Shown here: in pieces, positions 1 through 19,467 of the stretch
Position numbering within the stretch: the stretch's first letter is position 1
How the letters are laid out: each line of letters starts with the position of its first letter
Origin: an uncultured Blautia sp.
GTDB taxonomy: Bacteria; Bacillota; Clostridia; Lachnospirales; Lachnospiraceae
Assembly (NCBI GenBank): GCA_934364795.1
Contig: CAKRMK010000025.1
Span: forward strand, 1-45,962
DNA length: 45,962 bases
Reading direction: 5' to 3'
Notes under the pieces: model-generated
Told to the model about the DNA's origin: nothing
Databases searched by the model: none
Seen by the model: only the letters and a program-made list of their open reading frames with translations
Made by a program: the position numbers and the translations under genes

Positions 1-295
1 CCGGATTTTCAATATTTTTTTATTCCTCATCAGCCCTAAAATTTGTTTAGGGGAGATTTTTTCGGAAGTTCACATTTATACACCCAGCCCGCTGCTAAAA
101 AAAACAGTGGCATATGAAAAGAATACAGCCAATTAAAAACAGTTCGATTAGAATAGATATGCCCTATCGCAACAAGAATAATACCTATACCTTTTAATAT
201 ATCAAGCCATGATAAACACTCTGCTCTGCTCTGCTCTGCTCTGCTCTGCTCTGCTCTGCTCTGCTCTGCTCTGCTCTGCTCTGCTCTGCTCTCAA
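1..295 (-). pseudogene. Acyltransferase-3 family protein, N-terminal part, out of frame (partial)
   Basis: Reading leftward from about 218, the frame gives [12 protein letters not shown] followed by LVAIGH and FHMPLFFLAAGWVYK. This is the first two membrane segments of acyltransferase-3 (OatA/WecH-like) sugar O-acetylases. The family is about 330 residues with roughly ten membrane helices and acetylates cell-surface glycans. The frame enters from a CTGCT repeat (219-292). With the present repeat number it has no start codon, because a TAA lies at 302-300. It is broken again at a TAG near position 16. One extra base around the A6 run (plus-strand T6, 57-62) would instead join it to a frame reading SPKQILGLMRNKKILKIR, which runs off the window. 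A TTG at 295-293 could start the gene if the repeat had 13 or 16 units. The gene is therefore doubly out of frame and incomplete. The family call is fairly firm; activity is not expected in this form. Confidence 0.72.
219..292. repeat. CTGCT pentanucleotide tandem repeat, about 14.8 units
   Basis: Fourteen perfect CTGCT units occupy 221-290, with partial units on both sides. On the minus strand this is AGCAG, which reads as a repeating R-A-E-Q-S pentapeptide at the head of the acyltransferase frame. Five is not a multiple of three, so each gained or lost unit shifts the frame. Of the three phases, one has an upstream stop and no start (present state), one meets TGA at once, and one begins at a TTG at 295. 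Confidence 0.97.
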
Positions 296-296
296 G

Positions 297-326
297 ATTT
301 TATCCCTTTCTCTTACTAATTGTCAA
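297..326 (-). promoter_or_regulatory. Putative promoter upstream of the pentanucleotide repeat
   Basis: TTGACA (326-321), an 18-base spacer, then TAAAAT (302-297) on the minus strand. Transcription would begin at or just inside the repeat. The same stretch holds the purine-rich AGAAAGGG that could act as ribosome binding site for the TTG at 295, so promoter and ribosome-site readings compete. Confidence 0.4.
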
Positions 327-343
327 ATCGCCTTATAATAATC

Positions 344-505
344 TTACTTTGAGCACACATAATTTGATTTTACTAGATAATCAATTATGCAATTATATAT
401 TCTCATAGCTCCATTATCATTTGGATGCACCCATACTTCATCACCATATTTATTACGTTCATGTAATAGATTATCTCTATAATTCCCACTATTGATTCCT
501 ACCAT
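344..505 (-). pseudogene. C-terminal fragment of an SGNH/GDSL-type hydrolase
   Basis: A 53-residue frame ends in [19 protein letters not shown] followed by DYL. This resembles the end of SGNH hydrolases, where an Asp/His-Pro-Asn block is followed by a glycine and a final helix. No upstream catalytic GDS block exists: the frame is closed by TAG just upstream. I read it as a scar of a lost hydrolase gene, perhaps a polysaccharide esterase. The match rests on one short motif. Confidence 0.4.
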
Positions 506-592
506 AGCCAGCCATAAGACCGTTGCCTACTGCTCACCACGAAGAGGTGTGCGATGTTTCGAGCAGCGTAGGGAGCTTCCGTTCCCAGTAAA

Positions 593-1495
593 TCATAGAT
601 CACTGAATAGGTCAGCCTTATACACGCCATCCGCAAACATTTTTTTGAAGCTGTCTTTCACTGCTGCGACATCTTCATGGTAGGTCATACCATACCAGGT
701 GTCGTTGGTCTTCAGAACCTTCACAGACATCTTGCCTTCAGTCAGCAGCTCACCGATGAAGATAGGAATCAGATACTCTGCTTTCTGAGGATTACCCGGT
801 ACTTCTTTCTCGAAAAACTCCTTGAAACCATTTTCCAGCACATTCAGAAAATCAGGAGTCAAGCCCCACATATTCATGGAAACCAGGGAATTCACATCAA
901 CAACCACACCGTCTGCCTCTGCTCCATCTGCAGTTTTCACGATGTTCTTGGTCTCCACAACCTCTGTCAAGTTCCCATTCTCGTCCATCTTGCAGATGCC
1001 ACGAGTCACGCCGCCATTATCGGACAGCGTGTTCTTCAGCACAAAACCTGCCATACAGGACTTGCCACCATTCACCAGATAATCATGGACAGCCTTAAAG
1101 CCTTCCTTGCCATAGTAATCATCTGCATTGATCACAATGAACGGGGTATCAATCACATTTTTCGCAGCAAGCACAGCCTGTCCAGTTCCCCACGGCTTTG
1201 TACGGCCTGCCGGAAGTTCTCCCGGAATATCGTTGATATCCTGGAATGCATAGTCCACAGTTACATTATGACTGGAGCAAATGGAAGCAATACGATCACC
1301 GATGACCTCTTTGAACTCCTTCTCGATATCCTTACGGATGATAAATACTACATGATTGAAGCCAGCCTCAATCGCATCGTGGATTGAGTAGTCCATGATG
1401 ATGTGATTAGCATCATCGACCGGCTCCAACTGTTTTATTCCTGTTCCAAATCGGCTGCCGATTCCGGCTGCCATGATAAGTAATGTTGTATTCAT
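593..1495 (-). CDS. Sugar-phosphate/choline-type nucleotidyltransferase
   Basis: This 300-residue protein opens with LLIMAAGIGSRFGTGIKQL, the nucleotide-binding signature of the NTP_transferase fold (G-x-G-x-R followed by a lysine). It carries FIVINADDYYG near residue 120, whose aspartates would hold the metal ion. Family members load a sugar-1-phosphate or phosphocholine onto a nucleotide, giving activated donors for glycan assembly in the cytoplasm. An AAGGAG site lies just before the ATG. It sits at the downstream end of the polysaccharide cluster and probably supplies or modifies a precursor. The substrate cannot be told from the sequence; glucose-1-phosphate and choline phosphate are both possible. 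Confidence 0.85.
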   Translation of the reverse strand: MNTTLLIMAAGIGSRFGTGIKQLEPVDDANHIIMDYSIHDAIEAGFNHVVFIIRKDIEKEFKEVIGDRIASICSSHNVTVDYAFQDINDIPGELPAGRTKPWGTGQAVLAAKNVIDTPFIVINADDYYGKEGFKAVHDYLVNGGKSCMAGFVLKNTLSDNGGVTRGICKMDENGNLTEVVETKNIVKTADGAEADGVVVDVNSLVSMNMWGLTPDFLNVLENGFKEFFEKEVPGNPQKAEYLIPIFIGELLTEGKMSVKVLKTNDTWYGMTYHEDVAAVKDSFKKMFADGVYKADLFSDL

Positions 1496-1503
1496 ATCTC
1501 TCC

Positions 1504-1620
1504 TTACTGTGCCCGTGCTGCTTTGATTGGATATACCTTAATGCACTGGTAGCAACGAACACATGCACACTTGTTTTCATCAATCTGCGGATACTCAAAA
1601 CCTTCTTCATCCTCTAGCAG
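1504..1620 (-). pseudogene. Remnant of a ferredoxin-type [4Fe-4S] domain
   Basis: A 38-residue frame reads EDEEGFEYPQIDENKCACV and then RCYQCIKVYP. This resembles the GF-YP-ID-KC lead-in and cysteine cluster of Fe-S domains in F420-hydrogenase-beta-like proteins of glycan clusters. It has no start codon and follows an in-frame TAA (1623-1621). It is in the same frame that the neighbouring gene would enter if its poly-G tract had nine bases. It is probably a fragment left by a recombination between related genes. Confidence 0.4.
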
Positions 1621-1658
1621 TTAAAGTTTTTTATATGTCATATCATACATATCAATTT

Positions 1659-2762
1659 TTACTGCTGCCCCCCCCGAATGATTTTTGCTTTATGAAGAAG
1701 ATATTTCAATCGGCGGATATAATACATTTTCGGGTGACAACGTGAGATCGCATGATAAAATCCCTTATCTATGTTTTTGAAAAATATCTTTCTCTCTGTT
1801 GGCATTTTTGACGGGTGGCTTAACTGATGATTAGCCTCTACAGCTTTATTTAAATCCACATCTCTTAATTCAATTTTCGTATTATTTAATAATTCTTTTC
1901 CTTTTTCTGTTTGACAAAGAATTAATGAGATTCCCTTTTTTTGCTCCTCTGCCTCTAGCTCACTTCCCCATGAATCTCCCAATGTAATATCTGAAACTCT
2001 GTCCAAAGTTGCATACCGACATGAATAACAATTTTCAGTATAATCAAGCGATGTCAGAAATGCAAAAGTATACAAATCCGACTCACCATCAAATGATATT
2101 CTTTTATATCCAGACTGTAGTCCAAATCCTTCCTTATTTCGGAATTTTAATTCACTGATTGATTGAATATCCACATTATTTTCATGTAAAAAGCCGTTCA
2201 AAATTTGCGGTGACGGAGATCCATGACAAATAAGATCTACAGTATAGAGGTTATCACACTTTTTGATATAGTTTTTTACAGCAGCGACTTGGCAGGGCAA
2301 GCCAATAAACATAACTTTATTTCCCGCTTTAATCTTTTCAGACACTTTTTTATAGATATTTTGTGGGTTACTTTTAACATACTTTGAACCCGCAAACTTT
2401 TTTGCATGATTCAAGTCATTTGTAATATCAAAAACAAATTCACCATTTTTGAAAAGGCAAGCCGCAACATATCCACCATTTCGAATAAATGATTCCATCA
2501 ATCCTGCCGCAACACCTCCAGAAGAGGATGTTTGTCTTGTTGCATCCACCCAACCTTGATACCATTCCTGTGGGCGTTTCATTTTTAATGCACCATTATT
2601 GGGGCATACTTTTTCACATGCCCCACAATTGACACACAAGTTCTCATTAATGCTTGCATTCATCGCAGATAAAGAGTCCACAATAGAAATAGCATCCTTT
2701 TTACATATATCCAAGCATGCTTTACAACCAGCGCATTGATTGAGTTTACAAACTGTTTTCAT
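1659..2762 (-). CDS. F420-hydrogenase/dehydrogenase beta-like Fe-S protein of a glycan cluster
   Basis: The protein is about 368 residues. The N-terminus has two [4Fe-4S] ferredoxin motifs, CAGCKACLDIC and CVNCGACEKVC. These are followed by the F420H2-dehydrogenase beta-type region, with SSSGG near residue 80, GLPCQVAA near 160 and DLICHGSPS near 185. Such proteins often sit beside polysaccharide pyruvyl transferases in Firmicutes glycan clusters, as here two genes upstream; their exact redox role is not settled. The ATG at 2762 matches the usual family start; a GTG at 2771 is an alternative. The last codons contain a run of eight G (1668-1675). With eight the protein ends RGGQQ. With nine it would gain about a dozen residues, and with seven it would end differently, so tract length sets the tail. 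Confidence 0.82.
   Translation of the reverse strand: MKTVCKLNQCAGCKACLDICKKDAISIVDSLSAMNASINENLCVNCGACEKVCPNNGALKMKRPQEWYQGWVDATRQTSSSGGVAAGLMESFIRNGGYVAACLFKNGEFVFDITNDLNHAKKFAGSKYVKSNPQNIYKKVSEKIKAGNKVMFIGLPCQVAAVKNYIKKCDNLYTVDLICHGSPSPQILNGFLHENNVDIQSISELKFRNKEGFGLQSGYKRISFDGESDLYTFAFLTSLDYTENCYSCRYATLDRVSDITLGDSWGSELEAEEQKKGISLILCQTEKGKELLNNTKIELRDVDLNKAVEANHQLSHPSKMPTERKIFFKNIDKGFYHAISRCHPKMYYIRRLKYLLHKAKIIRGGQQ
1668..1675. repeat. Poly-C/G homopolymer, 8 bases, at the 3' end of the Fe-S gene
   Basis: Eight consecutive C on plus, G on the coding strand, six codons before the stop. Each length gives a different C-terminus: RGGSSKN with 7, RGGQQ with 8, and RGGAAVKIDMYDMTYKKL with 9. Which one is native cannot be decided from this sequence. 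Confidence 0.95.
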
Positions 2763-2862
2763 TCCTTCCACACCATCTTTCTGTCAGTTAAGTTCATTTT
2801 TCTTTACAACAAGCGCCCATTTAAAATGATATTCTCAAGATAATTGACCACACTTATTTTCT

Positions 2863-4392
2863 CTATTTATTTTTTAGATGAAACATTCTTTTCACCAAGG
2901 AAACTGCTCCTGCAAATTCATCCATCTTGAAAAATAACAGAAGCATTATCACACTAGATATTATAACGCAAACAAGCGCTTTTAAAATCAATCCAATCCA
3001 TCCATCTACAGATATCAAATTCACAGCATTATAAGACAGAAAAGAGGCTACAACTGCCGAAAACGCATAATAGCAAAGTTTAGAAACATATTTAATTGGA
3101 TTTCTTTTAAATATTAATTTAAAGATGTTTGTAGTTATCCATGGAGCACTAACAATTGCCATACTGACAATTGTGGATAGCACGATTCCATATAGTCCAA
3201 TAAACTTAACCGTAAATAAATTGAAGCCAAGGTTAAGTACTCCAGAAATAAGTGGTCTAAATCGGTCTTGATGCCAAATTCCACCTGCATCTTTATATAC
3301 ACTAGCCATCATAATGTACTCATATATCCAGAAATATACGCATAATAAAACAACCAATGAAAATGGCAAGAGAAGATTTTCGCCCATCCAAAGTTTCATA
3401 AATGGTTGATACAATCCCATAAAGCAGGCACAGCAAATTCCACTCACAAAAGAAACTAATAAAGTAAAAACGCGAAATTCTTCATAATTTTGATCAATGG
3501 ATTTCGTTAGCATGCTGTTACCAACTCCAGCCGTAATAGATGCGTAAATAATAGACATAAATCCAATAATCGAACTCATTATATAATAATAGTTTTGATA
3601 TTGTGCCAGAACTGTCAATCCCAAAAATGCTGATATGACGATTGTATCTGCCGAACTTACAATCGTATACCCTAATTTTGAAGTAAATAGATCTCGGATT
3701 TTTCCATTAATTTGTCTAATTTCTTCTTTTGGAAGTCTTCCTTCAGGATTATATTGTGGAAACATTCTTTTCGCTGCAACCGCAATAAACAAATTATTCA
3801 GAATCTGCGTAAATAAGAGAACAATAACAAAATAATAGTAGTTATGAAATAAAACCAATGCAGCAATCTGCAAAATATACTTTACGGTTTCTGTTCCTAA
3901 TGTAACCTTGCTTGCCACGTCGTTTCTCTGATGGGCTTGCAAAATACTATTCCTATATGCAAAAAGCCAATAAGTCAAAACTGTGGCAAATAAATTTAAC
4001 AGATATAGTATATAAACATTCATATCCGCTGGGATATTCCCTGATATAAGCTTTGGTATAAATGGTGTTAATCCCAGACCAATGATAAGAATTATGCCAC
4101 CAATAACGCGGTAATAAATCTTATACAACTTCATTAATGCGCAGATAGTAAGTGAGTCATCTTCTGCAATTGGTTTATACATACTAAAAACCATGGCACT
4201 TCCAACACCAAGTTCTGCCAAATTCAGCACTTGAAGTACAGATGTAAATAGGCTATTTAAGCCAAGGTACTCAACACCAATCGTATACATCATAACAGTG
4301 CGCATGATGAATGGTAATAAAATCTGATATATTTTTAGTAAAACCCCAAATATAATATTACGTGACGCATTTTTTGTCTTTTCGATTTTCAT
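2863..4392 (-). CDS. wzx: Wzx-like oligosaccharide flippase
   Basis: This 509-residue polytopic membrane protein belongs to the MOP/PST superfamily. It opens with NIIFGVLLKIYQILLPFIMR and MMYTIGVEYLGLNSLF, the typical first two helices of polysaccharide exporters, and about twelve to fourteen hydrophobic segments follow. It would flip undecaprenyl-linked repeat units across the membrane for the Wzy polymerase encoded nearby. Its ATG overlaps the upstream pyruvyl transferase stop by four bases (ATGA), so the two are translationally coupled. The length is normal for the family and no frame disruption is seen. The flippase fold is clear; the transported glycan is unknown. Confidence 0.9.
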   Translation of the reverse strand: MKIEKTKNASRNIIFGVLLKIYQILLPFIMRTVMMYTIGVEYLGLNSLFTSVLQVLNLAELGVGSAMVFSMYKPIAEDDSLTICALMKLYKIYYRVIGGIILIIGLGLTPFIPKLISGNIPADMNVYILYLLNLFATVLTYWLFAYRNSILQAHQRNDVASKVTLGTETVKYILQIAALVLFHNYYYFVIVLLFTQILNNLFIAVAAKRMFPQYNPEGRLPKEEIRQINGKIRDLFTSKLGYTIVSSADTIVISAFLGLTVLAQYQNYYYIMSSIIGFMSIIYASITAGVGNSMLTKSIDQNYEEFRVFTLLVSFVSGICCACFMGLYQPFMKLWMGENLLLPFSLVVLLCVYFWIYEYIMMASVYKDAGGIWHQDRFRPLISGVLNLGFNLFTVKFIGLYGIVLSTIVSMAIVSAPWITTNIFKLIFKRNPIKYVSKLCYYAFSAVVASFLSYNAVNLISVDGWIGLILKALVCVIISSVIMLLLFFKMDEFAGAVSLVKRMFHLKNK

Positions 4393-5522
4393 GATTTTCT
4401 TTCACCTTCGATTGCTTGATATAAGACCTCAATACACTCACTTGCCTTTGCATGTTTCTTTTCATTAACACGAACATAGTCAATCGGTTTAGTTAAATCA
4501 AAGTCTGATATTTCACCAAGTTTTATATACCTATTCTTCAAGCCAACCAACTCTAAAATATTAACTAATCTTTCATCATTTGTCCGCTTACTCACACAAA
4601 CAAAAGGCCGCTCAAAAATCAAGGAAAAAGCAGTTCCATGAAAAGATTCTGTAACAACGTAAGACGCATACCTAAAAAAGTTCAGAAAATCCGAAGGTGA
4701 AGTTTTTACTTTTTCAACTAGTATTCCGTTCTTTTTAAGAAGCTTTATTTCTTTTATATTAGAAGCAGTCATAATTGTGTAGACTGGCATATGTAATTTC
4801 TCAGAAATATACTTTGCTGCCTGAATTCCAGCTTCGCTAGTCCAAACATTATATAAGAAAATATAGTTTTCTCTAACAATCCTATCAGCAATTAAACTTT
4901 TGTAATCTTCTTTATCGCATAAAAGTGTCGGATCTAATAATGTGTACACATTTTTTTTATTAAAAATATAATTTTGTAGTTTTTTAGATCCCGACTTTTC
5001 TCTTACAGAAATGAGATCAAAATTACATATCTGCTTTCTTAATTCATCTGAGCATCTTTCTTCTGTATAATTCGTATCGTTAATGCTACATGCATATGAC
5101 ACTTTTCTTCCTGCAAAAGAAAATGGCAGAAAAAACACCGGATCACAATCTTTTGCTCGCAAGTTCCAAACTTGGTCACTACCCACAACAATTACATCAT
5201 AAAGATTTCCTGTTTTATCTGCGTTTGTACTGTTATATTCTATTTGGCTTAGCGGCAGTTGTTTTTCTCTAAACTTTTCAAATAAATAAACCTGATTTTT
5301 TATCTCCTTTCTTAACGGAATTCTTTTTAAATTGTATTTGATATTATTCATCGTATTCCACGGTCTATAAAGCCCGTAAAGATAATCATATTTATCCGGC
5401 TTGTAATCAATCACTTCAACACTATATTTCTTGGATATTGTCTTTGTAAGGGCCCATGCTTGTAAAACCGAACCATAATTAATTGACTTATGAAATGTTA
5501 ATAGTCCTATGTCGTTTCGCAT
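4389..5522 (-). CDS. Polysaccharide pyruvyl transferase family protein
   Basis: The protein is about 377 residues from the ATG at 5522, beginning MRNDIGLLTFHKSINYGSVL. This is the usual start of the CsaB/WcaK family, where a conserved asparagine-tyrosine-glycine follows. Further signatures are VVGSDQVWN near residue 110 and YVVTESFHGTAFS near residue 290, the His-Gly segment of the donor-binding domain. The family adds a pyruvate ketal to sugars of surface polysaccharides, giving a negative charge. A TTG at 5552 overlapping the upstream stop is a possible coupled start. A run of eight A on the coding strand (plus T8, 4951-4958) is in frame. Its partner is probably the Fe-S protein encoded two genes downstream. 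Confidence 0.87.
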   Translation of the reverse strand: MRNDIGLLTFHKSINYGSVLQAWALTKTISKKYSVEVIDYKPDKYDYLYGLYRPWNTMNNIKYNLKRIPLRKEIKNQVYLFEKFREKQLPLSQIEYNSTNADKTGNLYDVIVVGSDQVWNLRAKDCDPVFFLPFSFAGRKVSYACSINDTNYTEERCSDELRKQICNFDLISVREKSGSKKLQNYIFNKKNVYTLLDPTLLCDKEDYKSLIADRIVRENYIFLYNVWTSEAGIQAAKYISEKLHMPVYTIMTASNIKEIKLLKKNGILVEKVKTSPSDFLNFFRYASYVVTESFHGTAFSLIFERPFVCVSKRTNDERLVNILELVGLKNRYIKLGEISDFDLTKPIDYVRVNEKKHAKASECIEVLYQAIEGERKS

Positions 5523-5548
5523 ATTTTCTAAATATTCCTCTTCTAGCT

Positions 5549-6544
5549 TCAATCTTTTAGTTTATTCTTGTGTATCCTATATAGAATACCATAAAGTTCT
5601 GGCATTTTGAGAACAAGCAGCGTATCTGCTTTTGCTTTAACAGACGAATTATAATAAAGATAACACTGCTTATTGGCTTGAATAACCTGTTGCAAAAACT
5701 TCACTATCTTCTTATCAACTATGTTTTGGCTGCTTACCTCTTTAAATCGTTCAATTGCATGTTGCACCATTCTCGCTTTGGAAGACGTGTCAAGAGTTGT
5801 ACTACGCTTAGCAAGCAGCTCGTTGATTTCCTTCCACGCTTGAAACTCTGTTAACCTCCGTGCATTATATGAGCCATGCGAAATTGAGTTATCGTATATA
5901 AAGTAATAATAAAGTTTTTGTGAAACATATGAAATGCTCTCACATTTCATGAGTGCATTAGCAAAGAATAATGAATCCTCTCCCACCAGAATACTCGTGT
6001 CAAATTTTATATCTTGTAATAAGCTGCTATGAAATAATGCCCCCCAAACAGTCGCATGAGACCAAGATTCCATAAAATTGTAGTCCTCAACTTTTATGAG
6101 ACGCGGGCTTATTTCAGATTGAATTGGCAACTCGTTATTTTCATCGTTATCTGCACTACAATACAATGCTTCACATGTTGAAATCTTTGTATTAGTAATT
6201 AATGCCGTATACAGTAGCACTTCTATATATAACTCAGAAACCATGTCATCTGCATCAACAAAAGCCACATATTCCCCTCTTACCAGCTCAAGTCCACGAT
6301 TTCTTGCCGCCGAAGCACCAGCATTCTCCTGATGTAATACTTCAACCCTTGAATCTTTTTGTACATATTTGTCACATACAGATGGAGAGTCATCTTTTGA
6401 TCCATCATCAATCAAAATCAATTGAAGATTCTTATAAGTTTGTCTAAGCAGACTATCAATTGATCTGCACAGCTTATCTCCACAGTTATAAACCGGCATG
6501 ATAATACTAACCAAACTTTTTTGGCTCTTCATATACTTTTGCAC
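5549..6544 (-). CDS. GT2 family glycosyltransferase
   Basis: This 331-residue protein has a GT-A fold domain at the N-terminus: VSIIMPVYNCGDKL, then LILIDDGSKDDS, then the metal-binding VAFVDADDMVS near residue 95. The C-terminal part is variable and holds acceptor determinants. It would transfer a sugar from a nucleotide donor to the growing lipid-linked repeat unit at the inner membrane face. The start shown is a GTG; an ATG at 6532 (MKSQKSLV) is also plausible. A six-G run (6040-6045) lies in frame in VWGALFH and is the next-longest G tract I noticed in the cluster. The donor sugar is not predictable. Confidence 0.88.
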   Translation of the reverse strand: MQKYMKSQKSLVSIIMPVYNCGDKLCRSIDSLLRQTYKNLQLILIDDGSKDDSPSVCDKYVQKDSRVEVLHQENAGASAARNRGLELVRGEYVAFVDADDMVSELYIEVLLYTALITNTKISTCEALYCSADNDENNELPIQSEISPRLIKVEDYNFMESWSHATVWGALFHSSLLQDIKFDTSILVGEDSLFFANALMKCESISYVSQKLYYYFIYDNSISHGSYNARRLTEFQAWKEINELLAKRSTTLDTSSKARMVQHAIERFKEVSSQNIVDKKIVKFLQQVIQANKQCYLYYNSSVKAKADTLLVLKMPELYGILYRIHKNKLKD

Positions 6545-6578
6545 CTAATCATCACCTCATCCATCTATATTTTATATG

Positions 6579-7553
6579 TCACTTATGACCCATAATCTTT
6601 TCCTTTACAAGTAGATACGGATTGTAGAGATGTAAAAGAATCATTATAGCTATCTTCTTCTCTTTTGATGGGGTCTGATCATCATTAAAGAAATAACTCT
6701 TATTTTTTCGGAACTCGTTCATTAGATGATCGTACTCTTGTGTTTTCTTTGTTCCATTACATTTAATATACTTATTCAATAACGCATAAATGTTCATTGT
6801 TTTATAGCGATAAAAACTTGGCATACAACTTGGATACGCTTTATCAAGAAATTTTTCTATTGAATTCAGATTTTTCTCGATGATTTTTCTGGCATCTGTA
6901 CTATATTTCAATTTTGTAATACTGCCTGGACGACTCCGATAAAAATATTCCGTTGTACCGGTATGTGCTACTCTGCCAGCCAAGTCTACTATTTTATAGA
7001 AAACTGCAATGTCTTCATTATTTTCACCAACTGGAAAACGTATTTCTTCAAATAGATTACGAGCATAAATTTTATCCCAAGCAGCAACATCCATCGACTT
7101 TCCTAAGAGTATTTCATTCAATGCTTCTTCAGCTGAGTATGCTCTTGCTGGGCCATTAAATGTGACTGCTCTAGTTGAATGACCATCTGTAATAAATCTT
7201 GCACAAGTCGCCATTTCAACATTGTATTTTTTACATGCCACGAGCAAATGCTCTACCATTGTGTTTTCAATCCAGTCATCACTATCAACAAAAACGATAT
7301 AGTCTCCATGTGCGGTATCAATACCAACATTTCTTGCATCCGATAATCCACCATTCTTTTTGTGGATCACCTTTATTCTCGCATCCTTTTTTTCGAATGC
7401 GTCGCATATGTCTGGACATTTATCTGGACTGCCATCATCAACCAAAATAATTTCTAGATTTTTATATGTTTGATTAATAATAGAATCTATACATTTACTT
7501 AAATATTCTTCAACGCCATATATTGGCACAATAACACTTATTAAGTCACTCAT
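6579..7553 (-). CDS. GT2 family glycosyltransferase
   Basis: This 324-residue protein begins SDLISVIVPIYGVEEYLSKC, with IILVDDGSPDKCPDICD near residue 40 and the DxD-type IVFVDSDDW near residue 90, so it has a complete GT-A catalytic domain. AGGAG precedes the ATG by seven bases. The gene start overlaps the end of the full-length (nine-G) form of the upstream polymerase gene by eight bases. In the present eight-G form, ribosomes on the polymerase mRNA would stop about 50 bases earlier, which may lower coupled translation of this enzyme. It is similar in layout to the GT2 encoded at 9950 and may be an old duplicate. Confidence 0.88.
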   Translation of the reverse strand: MSDLISVIVPIYGVEEYLSKCIDSIINQTYKNLEIILVDDGSPDKCPDICDAFEKKDARIKVIHKKNGGLSDARNVGIDTAHGDYIVFVDSDDWIENTMVEHLLVACKKYNVEMATCARFITDGHSTRAVTFNGPARAYSAEEALNEILLGKSMDVAAWDKIYARNLFEEIRFPVGENNEDIAVFYKIVDLAGRVAHTGTTEYFYRSRPGSITKLKYSTDARKIIEKNLNSIEKFLDKAYPSCMPSFYRYKTMNIYALLNKYIKCNGTKKTQEYDHLMNEFRKNKSYFFNDDQTPSKEKKIAIMILLHLYNPYLLVKEKIMGHK

Positions 7554-8801: not shown

Positions 8802-8842
8802 ATACTATGCAGTTATTGCCAGCTTCCCACTGAACCATTTTA

Positions 8843-9946
8843 TTAAAACTCATTAAAAAAGAATATATAATTTCTTGCTGGTGACTTTGCATTTGCTACA
8901 TAAATTAAAAAGAGTAACAAAATAACTCCAAATCTTAAAATTTGTCTATATTTAGGTTTTACCACGGTTATTGCATCAGGGAGAAATAACAGCAAAAAAG
9001 ATCTATAAAAATAGGCAACTCGTGAAAACATTGTAATTGATAATCCCATTAATTCTAATGATAAATACAGTACCGTAAAGCTTGAAAGTTTAAATGAATC
9101 TTCTGTCGGAAATCTTCTATTATATAAATAGAGAATCAAGCAAAGTTCTATCACCCAAAGAATAGAACTACCGCCAATAGAATTTGCCCAGTAGTTTGTC
9201 GCAAAATACCCTGCATAACGAGGCAGAAATTTTAAGATAATTCCTGATGCTGCATTTATACTTAATGGTAAGGCAATTGCTCCTATTAACATATATTTAA
9301 AGAATCTCTTCTCATTCTTTTCTTGAAGCAACATTATCGGAACCATCAAAAGACAAATAACCGAAGTATTGTGAATTAAAAAAGCCAAAATCAATATCAC
9401 AGCACTTTTTGTATATTGCTTTTTCTTTAAGCACTTAAACGCCTGAAGTGCAATCGAGATTGCTAATAATTGTCTAACACAATTAAATGCGAACATATAA
9501 ATTGCTTCACATAAAAAAATCCATGTTGCAAATACAACGTGTTCTGTATTCTCAAAAATAAATTTAGCATATAAAGCACATGTTATCGCTGCAATCACAA
9601 ACAGGAACACATGTGCATCTGTCGTAAATAACCCTATTATTTTACACAATCCAAGATATGCTGATTCTGCTGTGTCCTGATACCCATAACTATATGTATA
9701 AAAAGTAGTTCTTCCCCAAATATTCGATATTATATCCTTCCAATTGACTGATTGAGCTTTGTTAAAGACCCCCATATACATTGATGTATCTTCACCAACT
9801 GATGACGCTCTTAAACTAAGAACAAGTACCATGGCAGAAAAAGAAAGGAAGAGAAAGACTTTCCGCGATCGAATACTATTATGTTTACTATATGGATACA
9901 ACGAAAATAAGGCTATTAATAAGGCCAATATAATATATACTGTCAT
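8843..9946 (-). CDS. EpsG-like membrane protein
   Basis: This 367-residue protein has about ten membrane segments. It begins MTVYIILALLIALFSLYPY and then has LVLSLRASSVGEDTSMYM. The pattern R-x-x-x-x-G-x-D-T-x-x-Y near residues 46-57 is the mark of EpsG-family proteins, which act as polymerases or related assembly factors for exopolysaccharide. A second polymerase-type gene lies next to it at 7546. The ATG follows the upstream GT2 stop by three bases with a GAGGTAAG ribosome site. The family is clear; whether it or its neighbour performs polymerisation is open. Confidence 0.85.
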   Translation of the reverse strand: MTVYIILALLIALFSLYPYSKHNSIRSRKVFLFLSFSAMVLVLSLRASSVGEDTSMYMGVFNKAQSVNWKDIISNIWGRTTFYTYSYGYQDTAESAYLGLCKIIGLFTTDAHVFLFVIAAITCALYAKFIFENTEHVVFATWIFLCEAIYMFAFNCVRQLLAISIALQAFKCLKKKQYTKSAVILILAFLIHNTSVICLLMVPIMLLQEKNEKRFFKYMLIGAIALPLSINAASGIILKFLPRYAGYFATNYWANSIGGSSILWVIELCLILYLYNRRFPTEDSFKLSSFTVLYLSLELMGLSITMFSRVAYFYRSFLLLFLPDAITVVKPKYRQILRFGVILLLFLIYVANAKSPARNYIFFFNEF

Positions 9947-9949
9947 ATC

Positions 9950-10891
9950 TTACCTCACGTATGTACAGTAAACTCCTGGAAGAATTCCAAAGAAGAGTAC
10001 CTTAAATCTTTCCCTAGAGTTTAATGCATTTCTAAAACAGAAAGAAAAATCCAGTCCATTAATCACGAACCCTTTTATCCCTCTTACTTTGCAGTTACTA
10101 ATATAATATTTGATTAAAACTCCATACAAATATCTCTGAAGTTCTGTATCATTAATCTTCTTGAAAAGACTAAACCACTGCTCATAAATGCTAATCGAAT
10201 CCCTTACCCTAGCAGCATCTTTCTTCCCGGATGTCATAATCGAATTATCACGAACAATATAATGATAGAACGTTCCATTCATGCATCTAATGGTATTGGC
10301 CGCCAGAAATACCCTTGGCAACATTTGAACATCTTCAAAATAGATTCCCTTTTCAAAAAATAGGTCATTTTCAAGAAGGAAATCTTTTCTGTACATATTA
10401 AGCCAAGCAGGTGCATACCATTGATTTGCCTTTATAGCTTGTTCTACAAATTCCTTTGATGTATATGTTATTCCTTCTTGTATTTCCGAATGATTTATCA
10501 GCTCATTCCCGTCTTTTTTTTCCATAACTGCATTTCCGACAATAATATCAACATTCTCATTGTTTCTTGCTTCCATAAATCGTTCGCAAGAATCGATATC
10601 AATATAGTCATCAGAATCCACATAAAGAACATACTCTCCTGATGCAACTTTAAGTCCAGCATTTCTTGCATCAGAAAGTCCACCATTTCTTTTATGAACA
10701 ATTTTCACTCGATTGTCCTGACGAGCAAATTCATCACACATTTCAGGACAGCAATCTGGACTTCCGTCATCAACAAGGATAACTTCTATATTTCCATACG
10801 TTTGTCTCAATAAACTTTGTACGCATCTATTTAATTCACGTTCCACTTTATAAACAGGAACAATTATACTAATTTTTATTTCAAATTCCAT
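9950..10891 (-). CDS. GT2 family glycosyltransferase
   Basis: About 313 residues starting MEFEIKISIIVPVYKVEREL, with VILVDDGSPDCCPEMCDEFA and LYVDSDDYIDIDS near residues 35 and 90, so it has a full GT-A domain. The ATG at 10891 has GAGG nine bases upstream, inside the end of the preceding fucosyltransferase gene, which points to translational coupling. A TTG at 10906 is less likely. It is close in motif spelling to the GT2 encoded at 6579, including the NGGLSDARN segment in both, which suggests a common ancestor within the cluster. The substrate is unknown. Confidence 0.88.
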   Translation of the reverse strand: MEFEIKISIIVPVYKVERELNRCVQSLLRQTYGNIEVILVDDGSPDCCPEMCDEFARQDNRVKIVHKRNGGLSDARNAGLKVASGEYVLYVDSDDYIDIDSCERFMEARNNENVDIIVGNAVMEKKDGNELINHSEIQEGITYTSKEFVEQAIKANQWYAPAWLNMYRKDFLLENDLFFEKGIYFEDVQMLPRVFLAANTIRCMNGTFYHYIVRDNSIMTSGKKDAARVRDSISIYEQWFSLFKKINDTELQRYLYGVLIKYYISNCKVRGIKGFVINGLDFSFCFRNALNSRERFKVLFFGILPGVYCTYVR

Positions 10892-10895
10892 CCTC

Positions 10896-11828
10896 TCAAA
10901 CCTCAATCTTTATCCATTTCTCATCTATCAGGGGCGATTTGTAGTCATTGTTAAACCACCTGCTTGGTGAAACCACGATTTTATCCTCATTTCTAGACAA
11001 GTACTGCACCCACCAGCTAAAAGTGCTATTTGATATAATAAAATGTTTACATGCACTCATTAATCTTAATTTTTCCCAAACGGGATCCGTTCCGTCTTCA
11101 TAATAAGTCAAACATCCCGTATTTACGTTTTCTCTTACCCACTGAATGTCATCAGAGAACATAAAAAACACAGGATTTTCAACTATACATTTTATTTTCT
11201 CAATTGCTGTCATGAAATAATCTTTAGTGCATAGACTATGAAGACTCTTGAATGTACTATTAGATTCAAAATCTCCTCGTCTCACGCTAATACAGATTGA
11301 ATTTGTACTAGTAATTTGATTTAACAGGTCAATATTTTTTTCTATAATAGGATGCTTAGGGGTAAACTCTTTAACAATCGTTTCTCGCACATCATCAAAG
11401 TAGATTGGATCTTCAAAATTTCCCGAAAGGAATTTGTCTTTCTGTGATGACTTAGAAAGTTTCCACCCACCTCTTCGAAACCAATAGACACCATATTTAT
11501 TAAGCAACTTTTCCCATTGTTGTTCATACTTTACCTGTTCATTCATCTGTTCAGGCTTAATTTTTTTCATTCCAACAAGATAAGGAAAACAAATCAACTT
11601 CTGAGATAGACTAGTGTGGTGAGCTAGAACAGATCCGGCGCTATCTTCCTCAAAATCTTGAACATTATAATCTCTCAGCATATTATAAAATGAAGAATCA
11701 CCATTGACCTTTTGCTGGTAATTGATTACTATTTTTTCATCTGGATAACATTTAATTTGTAGTGCCCTTGCTGCAGCATATCTAAAAAATTGATTGCCCA
11801 ATCTTCCACTCATTTGCAAATATATCAT
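10896..11828 (-). CDS. GT11 family (alpha-1,2-fucosyltransferase-like) glycosyltransferase
   Basis: This 310-residue protein opens MIYLQMSGRLGNQFFRYAAA, the N-terminal G-R-L-G-N-Q-x-F motif of GT11. It carries CISVRRGDFES near residue 185 (GDP-fucose-binding HxRRxD-like block; here VRRGDF), MFSDDIQW near 235 and FIISNSTFSWW near 275. These four blocks define alpha-1,2-fucosyltransferases, which add fucose to galactose-type acceptors from GDP-fucose. A GGAG site lies about ten bases before the ATG. A fucosylated glycan on a probable gut bacterium could resemble host blood-group H structures, but this is inference. No GDP-fucose synthesis gene is in the window, so the donor must come from elsewhere. 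Confidence 0.87.
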   Translation of the reverse strand: MIYLQMSGRLGNQFFRYAAARALQIKCYPDEKIVINYQQKVNGDSSFYNMLRDYNVQDFEEDSAGSVLAHHTSLSQKLICFPYLVGMKKIKPEQMNEQVKYEQQWEKLLNKYGVYWFRRGGWKLSKSSQKDKFLSGNFEDPIYFDDVRETIVKEFTPKHPIIEKNIDLLNQITSTNSICISVRRGDFESNSTFKSLHSLCTKDYFMTAIEKIKCIVENPVFFMFSDDIQWVRENVNTGCLTYYEDGTDPVWEKLRLMSACKHFIISNSTFSWWVQYLSRNEDKIVVSPSRWFNNDYKSPLIDEKWIKIEV

Positions 11829-11853
11829 ATTCTATAACTCCATCATATCTACC

Positions 11854-13221
11854 TTAATTCAATAACTTTTTGTACAATACATTCAACTCATCTGAATGTT
11901 CTTTCATTGTTTTTACCTTAAAGTTCTCTTCAATATATACATTCATATCATCTATAATGCTTGGATGCCTAATAAGGTCACCAATTTGGGATTTCAATAT
12001 TTCAACCGAACTAGCAACCACGAAACCATTTTTCCCCTCAAGAATCAAATCTTTTGCTCCAACCTTTTCACTCACAATCACTGGAATTCCATAGCTCAAC
12101 GCCTCTAGTACAGTGAATCCAAATGTTTCTTCCCATTCACTAGGAGTGACCAAAACATCAAATTGATCCATAACATTAGGAAGTTCTTGGTAAGAATATG
12201 GCTTGTGACATATCATATATGGCGGTGGATTATTAATTTCAACAAAAATGTGGGTTTCAAAATTATGTTCTCCACTTTGCCACAATGCATCGCATGCATT
12301 CTTAAACAAGTTATATCCCTTATGGGTAGTAAGCGGTCCTAAATAGCCAAATCTAACCAGTGAACCTACTTTTCGTATTCTTTTATGATCTGCAATTGCT
12401 CCATTGGATATTGATATTACTTTCGCATTGTTTCCAGCGTATCCTCGCTTCTTATAATTACAAAGCGTATTAGTGCTATTGGAATGAACAACATCCATTT
12501 TTTCAAGCAACTCTATATTACGGTCGCGTAAATTCTGATATCCCTTTTGCTTCTTTGCATCAATAATTTCTGATTCAATCACCTGCTCTGTTGCATCGTA
12601 CATTTTCCTATTGTGTCTAGCACGAAGCATCTTGATAACAAAACTTTCCTTAACACTTTTATATAATTCCGACTGAAAAAGTCTCATTTTATTAAATGAC
12701 AAACCATATTGATTACAGCTTACACAATCGGAACATTTTTTGTCATCCTGACAATCTTTTCCAGAATGGAATAAATTGCAACGTGGGCATATCGGAAAAT
12801 AATCATGAGTAGTAAATACGGTTTTCACTCCCACTTCATGCGCCGCTTCTACTAGTTCAGAAGGAAGTCCCATAAACGTATGAATATGAAGCACCTGAAA
12901 TGTGTGTTTCTGAAAGAATTCGGTATATACCTTTTTTTCTTTCTTAACCAGGTACATCGCAGGGTCTTGAATTCCATCCATTAATGGTATCGGCAATGGA
13001 TTTAACAATTCATAACTTGTACAATACAATTCATTCTGTAGCTTATATTTTTGTTTTTGATTTACTTTCGACTTTGGAGTAAGATCATATAGTCTACCTG
13101 GCCATAAAAGTCCAACCTGATGCCCGACTTTAGCCTGTTCAATCATCAAATCCAAGCAATACTGTGTCATTCCTCCTCGACGGAACGGCGGGAAGCCAAG
13201 TGAATAATGTAATATGTTCAT
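11854..13221 (-). CDS. GT4 family glycosyltransferase with a cysteine-rich insert
   Basis: This 455-residue protein opens NILHYSLGFPPFRRGGMTQY, the acceptor-side start of a GT-B enzyme. The C-terminal donor domain has VRFGYLGPLTTHKGYN near residue 285 and SEWEETFGFTVLEALSYGIP near residue 360, the E-x7-E motif of GT4. After HDYFPICPRC the protein has an insert with about seven cysteines (CPRC, C, CSDC, C), a probable zinc-binding element seen in a subset of GT4 enzymes, followed by a helical stretch. It would add an alpha-linked sugar to the repeat unit. The start has only a modest ribosome site (GAGAAAAG). Confidence 0.87.
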   Translation of the reverse strand: MNILHYSLGFPPFRRGGMTQYCLDLMIEQAKVGHQVGLLWPGRLYDLTPKSKVNQKQKYKLQNELYCTSYELLNPLPIPLMDGIQDPAMYLVKKEKKVYTEFFQKHTFQVLHIHTFMGLPSELVEAAHEVGVKTVFTTHDYFPICPRCNLFHSGKDCQDDKKCSDCVSCNQYGLSFNKMRLFQSELYKSVKESFVIKMLRARHNRKMYDATEQVIESEIIDAKKQKGYQNLRDRNIELLEKMDVVHSNSTNTLCNYKKRGYAGNNAKVISISNGAIADHKRIRKVGSLVRFGYLGPLTTHKGYNLFKNACDALWQSGEHNFETHIFVEINNPPPYMICHKPYSYQELPNVMDQFDVLVTPSEWEETFGFTVLEALSYGIPVIVSEKVGAKDLILEGKNGFVVASSVEILKSQIGDLIRHPSIIDDMNVYIEENFKVKTMKEHSDELNVLYKKLLN

Positions 13222-13230
13222 CGTCTTTTC

Positions 13231-14388
13231 TCAATTCAGCATTTCAAAATAGATGTCTTGCATCGCTTTTTTAGAACGTTCAACATCAAATGGTTCTGCT
13301 GCTTTCTCACAATTTTCAATCATAGATTTACGCAGATTTTCGTCAGCCAGCTTACTAATAGCTTTTGCAAATGCATTTTCATCAAAGGGGTCGCACAAAT
13401 AGCCATCAACGCCATCCGTAACATAGTCCACAATACCATGCACATTAGATGCTATCACGGGAAGACCTGCAGCCAGCATTTCAATACCAGAAAGACCAAG
13501 TCCTTCTCTCGTTGATGGCATAACACCGATATCTGCACATTTACAAATCTGCGGAATATCATCGCGAAGTCCCATAAGCCTCAAATCAATACCAACTTCT
13601 TTGGCAAGTTGTTCTAATTCTTCTTTTGTATTTGCACTTGTCATAGCATTGCCGCAAATCATAAAAACCGCATCCGGTATTTGAGCCTTAGCAAGTGCCT
13701 TAACAACAATCTGATGATTTTTTCTGTGGGAGAGTTCGCCCACAGCCAGTACTAACAGCTGATTGTCTCTAAAGCCCAGCATCTTTCTATACGCCGAACG
13801 ATCTATATCTACATCACGAAAACGCTTTATATCCACACCAACTCCTGGAATATAAAAAACTTTTCTACAATGTAATTTCTTTGCATTTTCGTAATCTTCT
13901 CTGTTAATGGTAATGATGGCATCACAATATCTTGACATCATGTCTTCAATGGTGTGAAAAACCATCCAGGTTTTCCTGCTAGAGTGCTTATGGAAATAGA
14001 ATCCATGTGTGGTGTATATCACAACACTTCCTGTTTTTCGCTGCTTTCTTCCTGCGAATCGAGCAATTGCACCTGCAATCGGAGTATGGCAATGAACCAA
14101 ATCAAAGTGTTCTTTTTTGAACAATTCCGTCATCTGTTTATACGACTTCAAGGTTTCAAATGATATCGGTTTGCTAGACGAAAAATTGATTTGATGAAAA
14201 ACAACATTCAGGTCTTCAAAATACGCCGGCATACATTCGGCCCCAGCATGATGAATATTTGCAGCACAGTGTACTTCATATCCCATTTTCTGAAGCGCAA
14301 TAATATCGTTCGTTAAAAAACTTTTTGTAAAGCGAGCCAGCGCAGTCACAATTAATGCTCTTTTCATTTTTTTACAATCATTCGTCAC
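13231..14388 (-). CDS. GT4 family glycosyltransferase
   Basis: This 385-residue GT-B protein has LIVTALARFTKSFLTNDI at the N-terminus, FDLVHCHTPIAGAIARFA near residue 95, YTTHGFYFHKH near 130, VLAVGELSHRKNH near 215, and the donor motif STREGLGLSGIEMLAAGLP near 290. The architecture matches EpsF/EpsD-like GT4 enzymes of exopolysaccharide clusters. A GAGGAG site lies eight bases before the GTG start. The gene ends just before the next GT4, 9 bases away. The donor sugar is not predictable. Confidence 0.88.
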   Translation of the reverse strand: MTNDCKKMKRALIVTALARFTKSFLTNDIIALQKMGYEVHCAANIHHAGAECMPAYFEDLNVVFHQINFSSSKPISFETLKSYKQMTELFKKEHFDLVHCHTPIAGAIARFAGRKQRKTGSVVIYTTHGFYFHKHSSRKTWMVFHTIEDMMSRYCDAIITINREDYENAKKLHCRKVFYIPGVGVDIKRFRDVDIDRSAYRKMLGFRDNQLLVLAVGELSHRKNHQIVVKALAKAQIPDAVFMICGNAMTSANTKEELEQLAKEVGIDLRLMGLRDDIPQICKCADIGVMPSTREGLGLSGIEMLAAGLPVIASNVHGIVDYVTDGVDGYLCDPFDENAFAKAISKLADENLRKSMIENCEKAAEPFDVERSKKAMQDIYFEMLN

Positions 14389-14405
14389 CGTTTTTTCTCC
14401 TCACA

Positions 14406-15019
14406 TCATTTCATATTTAAAAATCCCACATAATCATAGTCATCAATCCATCGTCTACCTGTGAATTTGCTCTTATATTTGCACAAGTCCATCACATCTC
14501 CATTCGGTTGTTCTGACCCAGAAATATAATGTGAACATTTGATTTCCGGCATCGAATGTGCCGTAAGTGCCAACTTATGCTTATAAGGTAGCTCATCAAA
14601 CTTCTTTAGAAGTTCTTCTGTACAACCATTCTGTTGAACTAAAATAACATAGAGATTATCTCTATTGATTCTCGCGGTTCTTTTTTCCCAGATTGTTTTA
14701 GCTTCATCAAAAGATGGATAATGCATGAAATAAATAGTTATATCACCCAGCTTAGCGACCGGATAATCCTTGTCACTTTGAACTTCTACTAACGTCTGAC
14801 TCAAATAATAATCAAGTTTTTCCAAAAACTTGATGTAGTCCTCTGCACCAAAAAACAAGTTAACTGTTGGAGAATTAAAGCGTTCCCCCAACTCGTGAAG
14901 GATCACCCCCCCACACAGTTATTGCATAGTATCGTGAAATTCCTATTGAAAAGTCGCTTTCTATTTTCAGAATTCAATGCCGTTCTCAAAAGAGCTCTAT
15001 AATATTTCGAGATTTTCAT
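14406..15019 (-). CDS. DUF1919 exopolysaccharide protein, frame broken at a poly-G tract
   Basis: The native gene starts at ATG 15019 (AGGTAGGA ribosome site) and reads MKISKYYRALL through NFTILCNNCVGG, the conserved N-terminal N-N-C-x-G-G of DUF1919. In the sequence as given, a run of seven G (14906-14912) sends the frame into an immediate TGA (14905-14903), so only about 36 residues are made. With eight G it continues VILHELGERFNSPTVNLFF and ends at 14406, a 204-residue protein of normal family length. The downstream part alone could start at a GTG at 14906 and give 166 residues without the conserved N-terminus. DUF1919 proteins occur in exopolysaccharide clusters; their reaction is unknown. 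The rest of the frame is undamaged, which argues for a recent or reversible change. Confidence 0.88.
14906..14912. repeat. Poly-C/G homopolymer, 7 bases, inside the DUF1919 gene
   Basis: Seven C on plus, G on the coding strand, encoding the Gly-Gly of the family signature. Seven bases place a TGA directly after the tract; eight restore the 204-residue frame. Confidence 0.95.
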
Positions 15020-15037
15020 ATATATTTCCTACCTCGT

Positions 15038-16270
15038 TTATTTTGTAAACACATCTGCGTACTGCCCACAGATCTTATCCCATGTGTACTCTTCTGCCAC
15101 TCGCTTCTTAGCTCTTCGACCCATCTCAGCGATTTCGTTCGCACTCATCTGATCAGCCTTATCAATAAGCTTTGCCAGACTATCAGACTTCCGGCTCCAG
15201 TACAAAGCGCAATCTTCTGCGACTTCTTTATTAAAACCAACATCAACCAGCAGGTTCAAATCCGTGCTACCAAGAGCTTCAATCAGAGACGGATTCGTAC
15301 CGCCAACCGTATGACCGTGGAAATATGCATATGCATTCTCTCGAATCTTCTTCAGCAGTTCCTGGTCATAAACAGTGCCAACGAACTTAATTCTCTTATC
15401 GCTCTTGAAATGAAGTTTTTCTTCTAGCTCATTCAGGAACTTCTCATTCACATTTGTGATAATGGCAAAGTTCTTTTTGCTCTTGCTCTTCATGAACTCT
15501 CGAATCATAACTTCAAAAGAGTTCTCCGGTACAAAACGACCGACGACAAGGTAGTAGTCCTTTTTCGTCAGTCCTTTTTCTTTATACCAGTTCACCAGCT
15601 TCTCATCGTCATCAGCCAACTTACTGAGGGTCAAATCTGCGCCATACGCAATAAACGTGGTCTTCGGATTTCGACCCTTGATACCTTTACCGTCATAGCA
15701 CTCGTGAATATACTTTTCGATATTCACTGAGTCACAGATAGCAAGGTCACAGTATTTGACCATCATCTGCTCAGAAATCTTCCAGTATTTCCGAATCGGC
15801 GCAGACCACTTAGCTCTCATCCATTCATGTCCGTCCGGATTCAGGTACACAGTACCACCTAGCTTATGGATTTCTTTATAGAAATGACCAGCAAAAGGTC
15901 CGATGCGGCAAGCCATGATATAAACGATTGGATGCTTAATCTGATGTTCCTTTATGTACTTGCAGCAAGCCTTCAATGCCGCAACATCATAATAAATTGC
16001 CTGCGCTGGTCCAATCTGAGGAATATCTATTTTGAAACAATGTGCATTGTGGAATTCAAACTCATGATCATTGATTCCGGTCACACCATCTACTTTTGTT
16101 TCATCCATGCAGCCGTCACCGTTAGCTTTACACGCCACATGATATTTAATATTTTTCTTATTCTGGTGATACTCTGTGAGCTTATAAACAAAAGTCTCGT
16201 ATCCACCATATGCACCTAAGCTCTTAGCTCCTACCAGAAATACGTGTTGTATTCCGTTTTCCCGCTGCAT
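15038..16270 (-). CDS. DUF1972 glycosyltransferase (rhamnosyltransferase-like, GT4 fold)
   Basis: This 410-residue protein begins with HVFLVGAKSLGAYGGYETFV, the G-x-x-G-G-x-E block of the DUF1972/GT4 enzymes related to Cps2T/WchF. It continues with IYYDVAALKA, VYLNPDGHEWMRAKWS near residue 145, YYLVVGRFVPENSFE near 240 and GTNPSLIEALG near 325. Relatives transfer rhamnose or a similar sugar early in repeat-unit assembly. A strong GGGGGAGGAAG ribosome site precedes the ATG. It is the first intact gene of the cluster, directly after a decayed rmlC remnant. Since rmlC makes the dTDP-rhamnose precursor, this context favours a rhamnose donor but does not prove it. Confidence 0.82.
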   Translation of the reverse strand: MQRENGIQHVFLVGAKSLGAYGGYETFVYKLTEYHQNKKNIKYHVACKANGDGCMDETKVDGVTGINDHEFEFHNAHCFKIDIPQIGPAQAIYYDVAALKACCKYIKEHQIKHPIVYIMACRIGPFAGHFYKEIHKLGGTVYLNPDGHEWMRAKWSAPIRKYWKISEQMMVKYCDLAICDSVNIEKYIHECYDGKGIKGRNPKTTFIAYGADLTLSKLADDDEKLVNWYKEKGLTKKDYYLVVGRFVPENSFEVMIREFMKSKSKKNFAIITNVNEKFLNELEEKLHFKSDKRIKFVGTVYDQELLKKIRENAYAYFHGHTVGGTNPSLIEALGSTDLNLLVDVGFNKEVAEDCALYWSRKSDSLAKLIDKADQMSANEIAEMGRRAKKRVAEEYTWDKICGQYADVFTK

Positions 16271-16288
16271 TCTTCCTCCCCCTGTATT

Positions 16289-16964: not shown

Positions 16965-16996
16965 AAACTACTTCTACATTTTCTCTCTCCCAGTCC

Positions 16997-19237: not shown

Positions 19238-19292
19238 AGTATGTGCTCCTTTCTGTTCTTTAGATTCATAACAATATTAACTATTTTTTCGT

Positions 19293-19465: not shown

Positions 19466-19467
19466 TT

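Follow-up and report, generated by a model that had tools for sequence, protein, structure and literature searches.

In Campylobacter, Neisseria and Haemophilus, contingency loci carry G tracts in lipooligosaccharide and capsule genes. A Firmicute example is the capsule O-acetyltransferase gene wciZ of pneumococcal serotypes 15B/15C, which is switched by a short repeat, in that case a TA repeat in a single gene. For gut Firmicutes, discussion of phase variation usually centres on DNA inversion. Here we describe a glycan gene cluster on contig CAKRMK010000025.1, whose whole analysed stretch of 45,962 bases (39.7% G+C, zero N) is referred to as the window, and we hold it highly probable that the cluster is a surface-polysaccharide operon of a Blautia-related member of the Lachnospiraceae with four slipped-strand contingency sites. 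With the Campylobacter, Neisseria and Haemophilus systems it shares poly-G in glycan genes, natural ON and OFF registers and several loci per cluster. It differs from them in its Lachnospiraceae host, in ending at a hepatitis delta virus (HDV)-like ribozyme, and in the apparent switching of a DUF1919 gene and of the tail of an Fe-S FrhB-type protein. The comparison with these genera is a general one, based on abstracts and, for C. jejuni cgtB, on excerpts of PMC6437147.

The fourth repeat of the cluster has a close counterpart as well. According to excerpts of PMC8125046 and PMC6265453, a GAGCA(n) repeat (equivalent to AGAGC) switches modS, a Type III methyltransferase gene of Streptococcus suis, by frame. 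The same pentamer lies near the 5' end of the window gene, which differs from modS in encoding a membrane acyltransferase (Acyl_transf_3) in a glycan locus and no Type III mod methyltransferase, and possibly in having a promoter-like box adjoining the array. Repeat-based phase variation is a known kind of switching, and what appears to be new is how far it extends in glycan operons of Lachnospiraceae, together with the ribozyme boundary and the link of pentamer arrays to promoters. An earlier sequence-only reading of this DNA had considered such a system noteworthy for a gut Firmicute, a claim that needs toning down given that the very same pentamer already switches modS in the sources cited above. 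Among the listed titles and abstracts of open-licence papers other than preprints, none dealt with slipped-strand glycan switching in Lachnospiraceae and none linked the ribozyme family RF02682 to glycan operons.

The glycan cluster occupies positions 593-16270 and consists of 14 open reading frames (ORFs), all on the minus strand and thus read leftward. The repeat tracts and the genes that they interrupt, together with the acyltransferase fragment beyond the cluster, are as follows:

14906-14912, minus strand: G7 tract of the DUF1919 gene (C7 on the plus strand)
14406-14906, minus strand: downstream part of the DUF1919 gene (Pfam PF08942, positions 34-196 of 196)
7711-7718, minus strand: G8 tract in the polymerase-like gene (C8 on the plus strand)
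7605-8801, minus strand: O-antigen ligase/polymerase-like membrane protein (Wzy_C, 24.7 bits, below the cut-off of 31.7)
1668-1675, minus strand: G8 tract at the C-terminal tail of the Fe-S gene (C8 on the plus strand)
1659-2771, minus strand: Fe-S FrhB/FdhB-type protein, without its tail in the sequenced register (Pfam PF04432 and Fer4 families)
219-292, minus strand: pentamer array of 14.8 AGAGC units at the acyltransferase 5' end (100% matches; CTCTG on the plus strand)
1-218, minus strand: 5' part of an Acyl_transf_3 gene, truncated where the window ends (Pfam PF01757, 33.4 bits, cut-off 31)

The sequence-only reading had reported four simple-sequence tracts in one glycan cluster, and this observation is confirmed: all three G tracts and the AGAGC array coincide with the break of an open frame, each being a repeat in a gene whose frame a change of length would alter. 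Its statement that the window holds no further G/C runs of at least 7 was borne out by a count over all 45,962 bases, which returned only the three runs listed, each of them G on the coding strand. The remaining 29 kb are accordingly free of such tracts, as had been claimed; that they are also in frame was checked at the level of ORFs, not gene by gene. At the G7 tract, the DUF1919 ORF lacks profile positions 1-33 and its start lies in another register. In the polymerase-like protein the final ~34 residues are out of register, and array and acyltransferase fragment do not share a register. In the Fe-S gene the tract ends two codons ahead of the stop and changes a C-terminal tail of ~15 residues only. 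At least three of the genes had been described as OFF and one step from ON. The breaks are present, with the qualifications that the Fe-S protein loses only its tail and that reading of the frames places a second break in the acyltransferase, near the contig end.

The position of the runs at frame breaks is stronger evidence than their number. Simulated 300 times under a first-order Markov model, the window yields an expected 1.58 G/C runs of at least 7, and three or more occur with a probability of 0.21. When codons of the 14 glycan ORFs were shuffled synonymously, 0.086 runs were expected inside them, and the observed two were reached in 0.25% of 2000 shuffles; the third run lies at the broken DUF1919 start.

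Comparison of the tracts across relatives found DUF1919 in several registers in other assemblies, alternative Fe-S tails and a polymerase relative in register. DUF1919 relatives of 204 residues exist. A rule-based assignment of N-termini among 105 homologs placed 39 in register through the tract and 16 with a start at the tract; nine had another N-terminus, and 41, including distant and partial proteins, had no junction motif. Inspection of the nine by eye showed six that enter the tract from the wrong frame, one in register with a variant residue and two that are unrelated, so that forms breaking at the tract number 22 of 105 (16 by rule, six by eye). Over the aligned part, the identity of these 22 to the window ranges from ~72% to 95%. 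Forms in and out of register coexist at 92-95% identity, and out-of-register forms recur near 72-77% (P0035, P0038, P0041, P0045, P0047, P0052). Protein P0004 (166 residues, five contigs) has the same start as the window gene; its cluster has 88 members, the length being that of P0004 itself. The DUF1919 proteins carry two source labels, 'lgn' and 'ena', which makes a single faulty assembly an unlikely origin of the broken form. In genome G458, which carries a related operon, DUF1919 is in frame with a short G5.

For the polymerase, the closest relative (P0106, 93%) is in register through the tract and has a C-terminus different from that of the window protein. By eye, two of 55 relatives are out of register at the tract site (P0133, P0137), and P0158 leaves the register slightly later. 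Fe-S C-termini were read in 39 proteins (P0161-P0199), taken from the 120 listed of 2,575 matches. By eye, relatives at similar identity are either tailed (IDMYDMTYK- or IEYKISF-like) or tail-less and diverge at the glycine run, as in the pairs P0172/P0171, P0173/P0174 and P0176/P0177. The G458 homolog keeps its tail in frame, and in L310 (genome G287) a G9 tract parts a tail of the same type from an FrhB-type protein. At the protein level, register thus varies among close relatives for DUF1919 and the Fe-S tail, and more weakly, in two of 55, for the polymerase.

Similar tracts were found in other genomes. G runs of at least 8 were present in five of six genomes (G001-G005 and G020, including B. 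schinkii, B. luti and B. massiliensis), with zero in G005. On contig C22 of B. schinkii one G9 tract splits an acyltransferase gene and another a TupA ATP-grasp gene, and the split genes match their Pfam profiles only from positions 78 and 31, respectively; an Fe-S gene on the same contig has a G8 close to its end. An acyltransferase located elsewhere in the B. schinkii genome carries an in-frame G9, and further G runs lie at the ends of, or just ahead of, genes that by eye are regulator- or kinase-like. Non-glycan G runs in other genomes were located near a GerA and a macro-domain gene. In addition, ten loci that end in the HDV-like ribozyme described below contained 20 G tracts of at least 7, which a mechanical test divided into 10 frame-keeping and 10 frame-splitting ones. 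The alleles of DUF1919 and the Fe-S gene, the polymerase relative and these 10 splitting tracts together support the earlier proposal of slipped-strand switching, and we consider slipped-strand phase variation very likely from the sequence comparisons.

Several observations weigh against this interpretation. By base composition, three G/C runs are not remarkable. The displacement has the same direction at all three G tracts, and all four sites are OFF simultaneously, as deletion-prone sequencing would also produce. The Fe-S change is small, and the acyltransferase may be doubly interrupted or may have been hit by an end-of-contig error. The polymerase tract is interrupted, by eye, in most of the 55 listed relatives, and hence is no old conserved switch. 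For all the ribozyme-ended loci 'split' is a mechanical label, and both splits of L320 lie at gene ends.

The common direction of the three G tracts and the position of the acyltransferase break at the contig end would both fit an indel-prone assembly in which homopolymer deletions have broken normal genes. We regard such an error as improbable. As many as 18 A/T runs of 7-8 lie more than 30 nucleotides inside uninterrupted ORFs, which argues against general homopolymer error. The P0004 form of DUF1919 starts like that of the window in other assemblies, the same kind of breaks occurs in B. schinkii MSK.6.26, a named isolate genome (coverage in the contig title, cov_141.833), and an array of 14.8 AGAGC units is no homopolymer error.

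A degenerating cluster, in which frameshifts merely happen to fall at tracts, would account for four genes being OFF together and for two breaks in the acyltransferase. It could also explain a ferredoxin-like CxxC leftover seen by eye near 1507-1620 (minus strand) in a different frame between the Fe-S and nucleotidyltransferase genes, perhaps the remnant of a gene. Decay is nevertheless very improbable in our view, as the remaining eleven ORFs of the cluster are uninterrupted and fit their Pfam families, the breaks are located at repeats, DUF1919 alleles in and out of register stand side by side at 92-95% identity, and the tracts recur in other operons.

Control of the cluster by an invertible promoter or a recombinase, the mode usually reported for gut Firmicutes, appears least probable of all. 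A weak inverted pair (16 nucleotides, 88%, 14864-14879/17619-17634) does flank the region ahead of the first gene. However, a search for arms of at least 16 nucleotides up to 3 kb apart gave 12 pairs within 1-19000 that were all imperfect (72-94%), with every arm inside a gene. Good inverted repeats flanking a promoter were not found within 1-19000, and no recombinase was present among the 14 ORFs scanned.

If slipped-strand switching operates, changes in G number during replication would shift the frames of the DUF1919, polymerase-like and Fe-S genes. The DUF1919 protein would lose its first ~38 residues, the polymerase-like protein would have its C-terminal membrane end replaced, and the Fe-S protein would lose a short tail. 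A change in the number of AGAGC units would shift the frame of the membrane acyltransferase or alter its leader. We posit that a cell population would thereby contain many combinations of glycan assembly and decoration, which may be of benefit against phages or immunity. Should slipped-strand glycan switching be common in Lachnospiraceae, part of the surface variation in the gut would be invisible to standard assembly, which registers one length and labels the gene broken.

The remaining genes of the cluster, in order of transcription, lead from a DUF1972/GT4 gene and DUF1919 over two GT4-type, GT11, GT2, EpsG-family and polymerase-like genes to two GT2 genes, a pyruvyl transferase family gene, the flippase, the Fe-S gene and a sugar nucleotidyltransferase, behind which the ribozyme is located:

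15038-16270, minus strand: DUF1972/GT4 glycosyltransferase, first gene of the cluster (Pfam PF09314)
13231-14388, minus strand: GT4-type glycosyltransferase (Pfam PF00534)
11854-13221, minus strand: GT4-type glycosyltransferase (Pfam PF00534)
10896-11828, minus strand: GT11 glycosyltransferase (Pfam PF01531)
9950-10906, minus strand: GT2 glycosyltransferase (Pfam PF00535)
8843-9946, minus strand: EpsG-family protein (Pfam PF14897)
6579-7553, minus strand: GT2 glycosyltransferase (Pfam PF00535)
5549-6544, minus strand: GT2 glycosyltransferase (Pfam PF00535)
4389-5552, minus strand: polysaccharide pyruvyl transferase family protein (Pfam PF04230)
2863-4392, minus strand: polysaccharide flippase, Wzx-like (Pfam PF01943)
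593-1495, minus strand: sugar nucleotidyltransferase, last gene ahead of the ribozyme (Pfam PF00483)
497-567, minus strand: HDV-like ribozyme RF02682, HDV-F-prausnitzii (Rfam, 68.5 bits, gathering 44)

The window ribozyme covers model positions 1-74 and begins 25 nucleotides past the nucleotidyltransferase gene. An Rfam scan of 16 loci added one more RF02682 match, on the tract contig of B. schinkii (77.1 bits). G020 and G001 contribute one copy each (3 of 13 genomes in that search), and among 397 Lachnospiraceae genomes, scanned with stricter filters that lose weak matches, 16 had a match, 11 of them over the cut-off with 18 copies. The surroundings of 21 entries, the window included, were examined over up to 20 kb per copy, with only ~2 kb downstream. 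G/C runs of at least 7 occur in twelve entries and amount to 26, all of which are G on the ribozyme sense strand and all upstream; given the short downstream part, only the strand is informative. The other nine entries have no such run in the stretch covered (four of them with ~5 kb or less upstream), which weighs against a general link between ribozyme and tracts. This link was first noticed in G002, G020 and the window; enrichment was tested in ten further genomes. There, 13 of 77 runs of at least 8 are located on the strand of a ribozyme and no more than 18 kb upstream of it (14 ribozymes in all), against a Poisson expectation of 0.29 (the 13 tracts counted by hand, genome sizes rounded).

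The ribozyme begins 25-84 nucleotides past the last gene in 19 of 21 copies, and the genes on its two sides vary. The gene ahead of it is of the VanZ family in both loci tested (L305, L307), with proteins near-identical by eye to that of L305 in L304, L306, L310, L311 and L312. In L309 (B. schinkii) it is a nucleotidyltransferase whose N-terminus is near-identical to that of the window protein, in L213 it is GlmS-like (by eye), and in L320 a GDSL lipase. The gene behind the ribozyme differs between loci. Pfam comparison of 16 of the 20 tract ORFs returned GT2, GT4, Acyl_transf_3 (one below cut-off), hexapeptide, FrhB and GDSL lipase families; the L307 tract ORF (same tract as L132) was without a Pfam family.

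In an alignment of 14 of the 21 ribozyme copies (13 distinct), built on a structure hand-written from the Rfam line with P2 added, 95.7% of cells pair and three pairs are changed on both sides, a number reached in 12 of 500 shuffles. The window copy scores over the gathering threshold of its family and aligns with P1, P3 and P4 of its relatives. It differs by a weakened P2, in which by eye three of five pairs are retained, so that its activity is uncertain. The weakened P2 is possibly a recombination scar at the downstream edge of the ribozyme. The simplest reading of these sequences is that the ribozyme forms a processing boundary of the long glycan transcript, most likely cutting it from what follows. 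Through its link to tracts such operons could be located easily, and a bacterial HDV-like ribozyme gains a testable setting.

By the gene at 16997-18616, the genome closest to the window is the metagenome-assembled genome Clostridia bacterium SUG1437 (80% nucleotide identity over 16998-19254), with Blautia species at ~74%. Plasmid records gave no match to the window. The cluster DNA at 4389-16270 matched two of five Blautia-like genomes, over 281 and 67 bases, and a close anchor-gene relative (77% or better) occurs in 5 of 64 genomes of the genus of G001. The operon of G458 (locus L204) matches the window at 93% over 12015-16260 and at 69% over 1711-8570, whereas 23 matches to 16300-36000 reach 64-84%. 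This difference between the glycan end and non-glycan DNA points to a probable recent transfer of part of the module from one species to another.

The AGAGC array differs from the G tracts in its setting, as it adjoins a promoter-like box:

297-326, minus strand: predicted sigma-70-like promoter, TTGACA-18-TAAAAT (consensus match 11/12)

This box ends four nucleotides ahead of the array and is the best minus-strand match listed in 1-17500, where 80 consensus matches were found and 69.0 were expected from shuffles. Arrays of at least 5 units occurred in 7 of 397 Lachnospiraceae genomes and the backwards pattern in none of them; in a phylum-wide sample the figures were 2 and 1 of 398 genomes, the two with arrays being G565, without a box of at least five matches, and G322, which is already in the family sample. 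In the window and six of the seven further Lachnospiraceae arrays, a TTGACA box (at least 5/6) lies 32-35 nucleotides, and a -10-like hexamer 1-5 nucleotides, ahead of the first unit. In IMG/VR, the pattern TTGAC-N24..31-(AGAGC)3 was present in 17 loci, compared with one for reversed -35 letters and none for a reversed unit. Arrays under 4 units (three loci excepted), short upstreams and those with N were left out, and upstreams resembling each other were counted once; on this basis 18 of 40 distinct upstream families had a TTGACA box, as against 8% of random places; two of the 18 stem from a search that required the box. The other 22 have no box at 5/6, and these count against a general promoter link: 14 have arrays of 5-6 units, and longer boxless arrays are those of L210, L225, L235, L244, L248, L270 and L293.

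Arrays situated ~33 nucleotides past TTGACA accompany unrelated genes of Lachnospiraceae and of phage contigs (L206-L212, L210 being weaker, L230, L233, L234, L237, L245, L246, L249, L250, L254, L256, L257, L262, L263, L265 and L274-L276). According to Pfam, genes that bear or follow arrays include an acyltransferase (L208), an AMP-binding (L212) and a Big_2 protein (L245), C5 methyltransferases (L233, L275) and PAPS-reductase-like proteins (L250, L257, L235); further C5 methyltransferases were recognized by eye (L230, L234, L237, L246, L256, L265), and the array genes of L206 and L207 matched no Pfam family. Some arrays lie within coding sequence, including that of phage-contig genes, and the arrays at DNA-modification-type genes of phage contigs suggest phase-variable phage modification genes. 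The single repeat unit AGAGC connects a glycan gene of a commensal with modS of S. suis and with DNA-modification genes of phages. L249, L254 and L262, all from IMG/VR, share their flanks and carry 10.8, 9.8 and 24.8 units, as expected of an unstable array. Phage-record relatives of three array loci numbered 2, 4 and 1 records, all of them distant. Two array loci contain a second repeat: in L244 a GCCA-type repeat near 1374-1423 almost adjoins the AGAGC array of a phage-contig gene, and in L212 (B. schinkii) a (TTGC)9 array at 3488, possibly another contingency repeat, lies ~170 nucleotides from the AGAGC array of that locus.

The array might mainly be a 5' leader that is transcribed and by its length tunes promoter output or the mRNA, and not the frame; we consider this less likely than not. 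The box and -10-like hexamer ahead of the array in the window and six of seven Lachnospiraceae loci favour a leader, as do L206 and L207, where the ORF has its own start 48 and 172 nucleotides past the array. In the window, L208 and L212, however, the gene frame enters the array and no start of its own lies nearby; in the window only a TTG adjoins, beside the promoter-like box, as a possible upstream start. The arrays inside coding sequence of some phage-contig genes, and the switching of modS by frame with the same pentamer (excerpts of PMC8125046), likewise argue for a coding repeat. Because the promoter-like box was found, a leader role is kept beside the coding-repeat reading, and for the acyltransferase the effect of the array may come from the frame, from the length of the leader, or from both.

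Taken jointly, these data raise the possibility, which we put forward tentatively and hold to be somewhat less than even, of a distinct Lachnospiraceae class of switchable glycan operon, with a long transcript, several G-tract contingency genes, an HDV-like ribozyme shortly past the last gene and interchangeable cargo directly downstream. Under the same proposal, (AGAGC)n would be a second type of switch that arises or persists where transcription begins at sigma-A-like promoters, both in hosts and in their phages, with initiation itself maybe driving array instability.

Toward the far end of the window, Rfam identifies a T-box leader at 44351-44606 (minus strand) and a tRNA at 45890-45962 (plus strand), and the genes behind the T-box are, by eye, trp-like.

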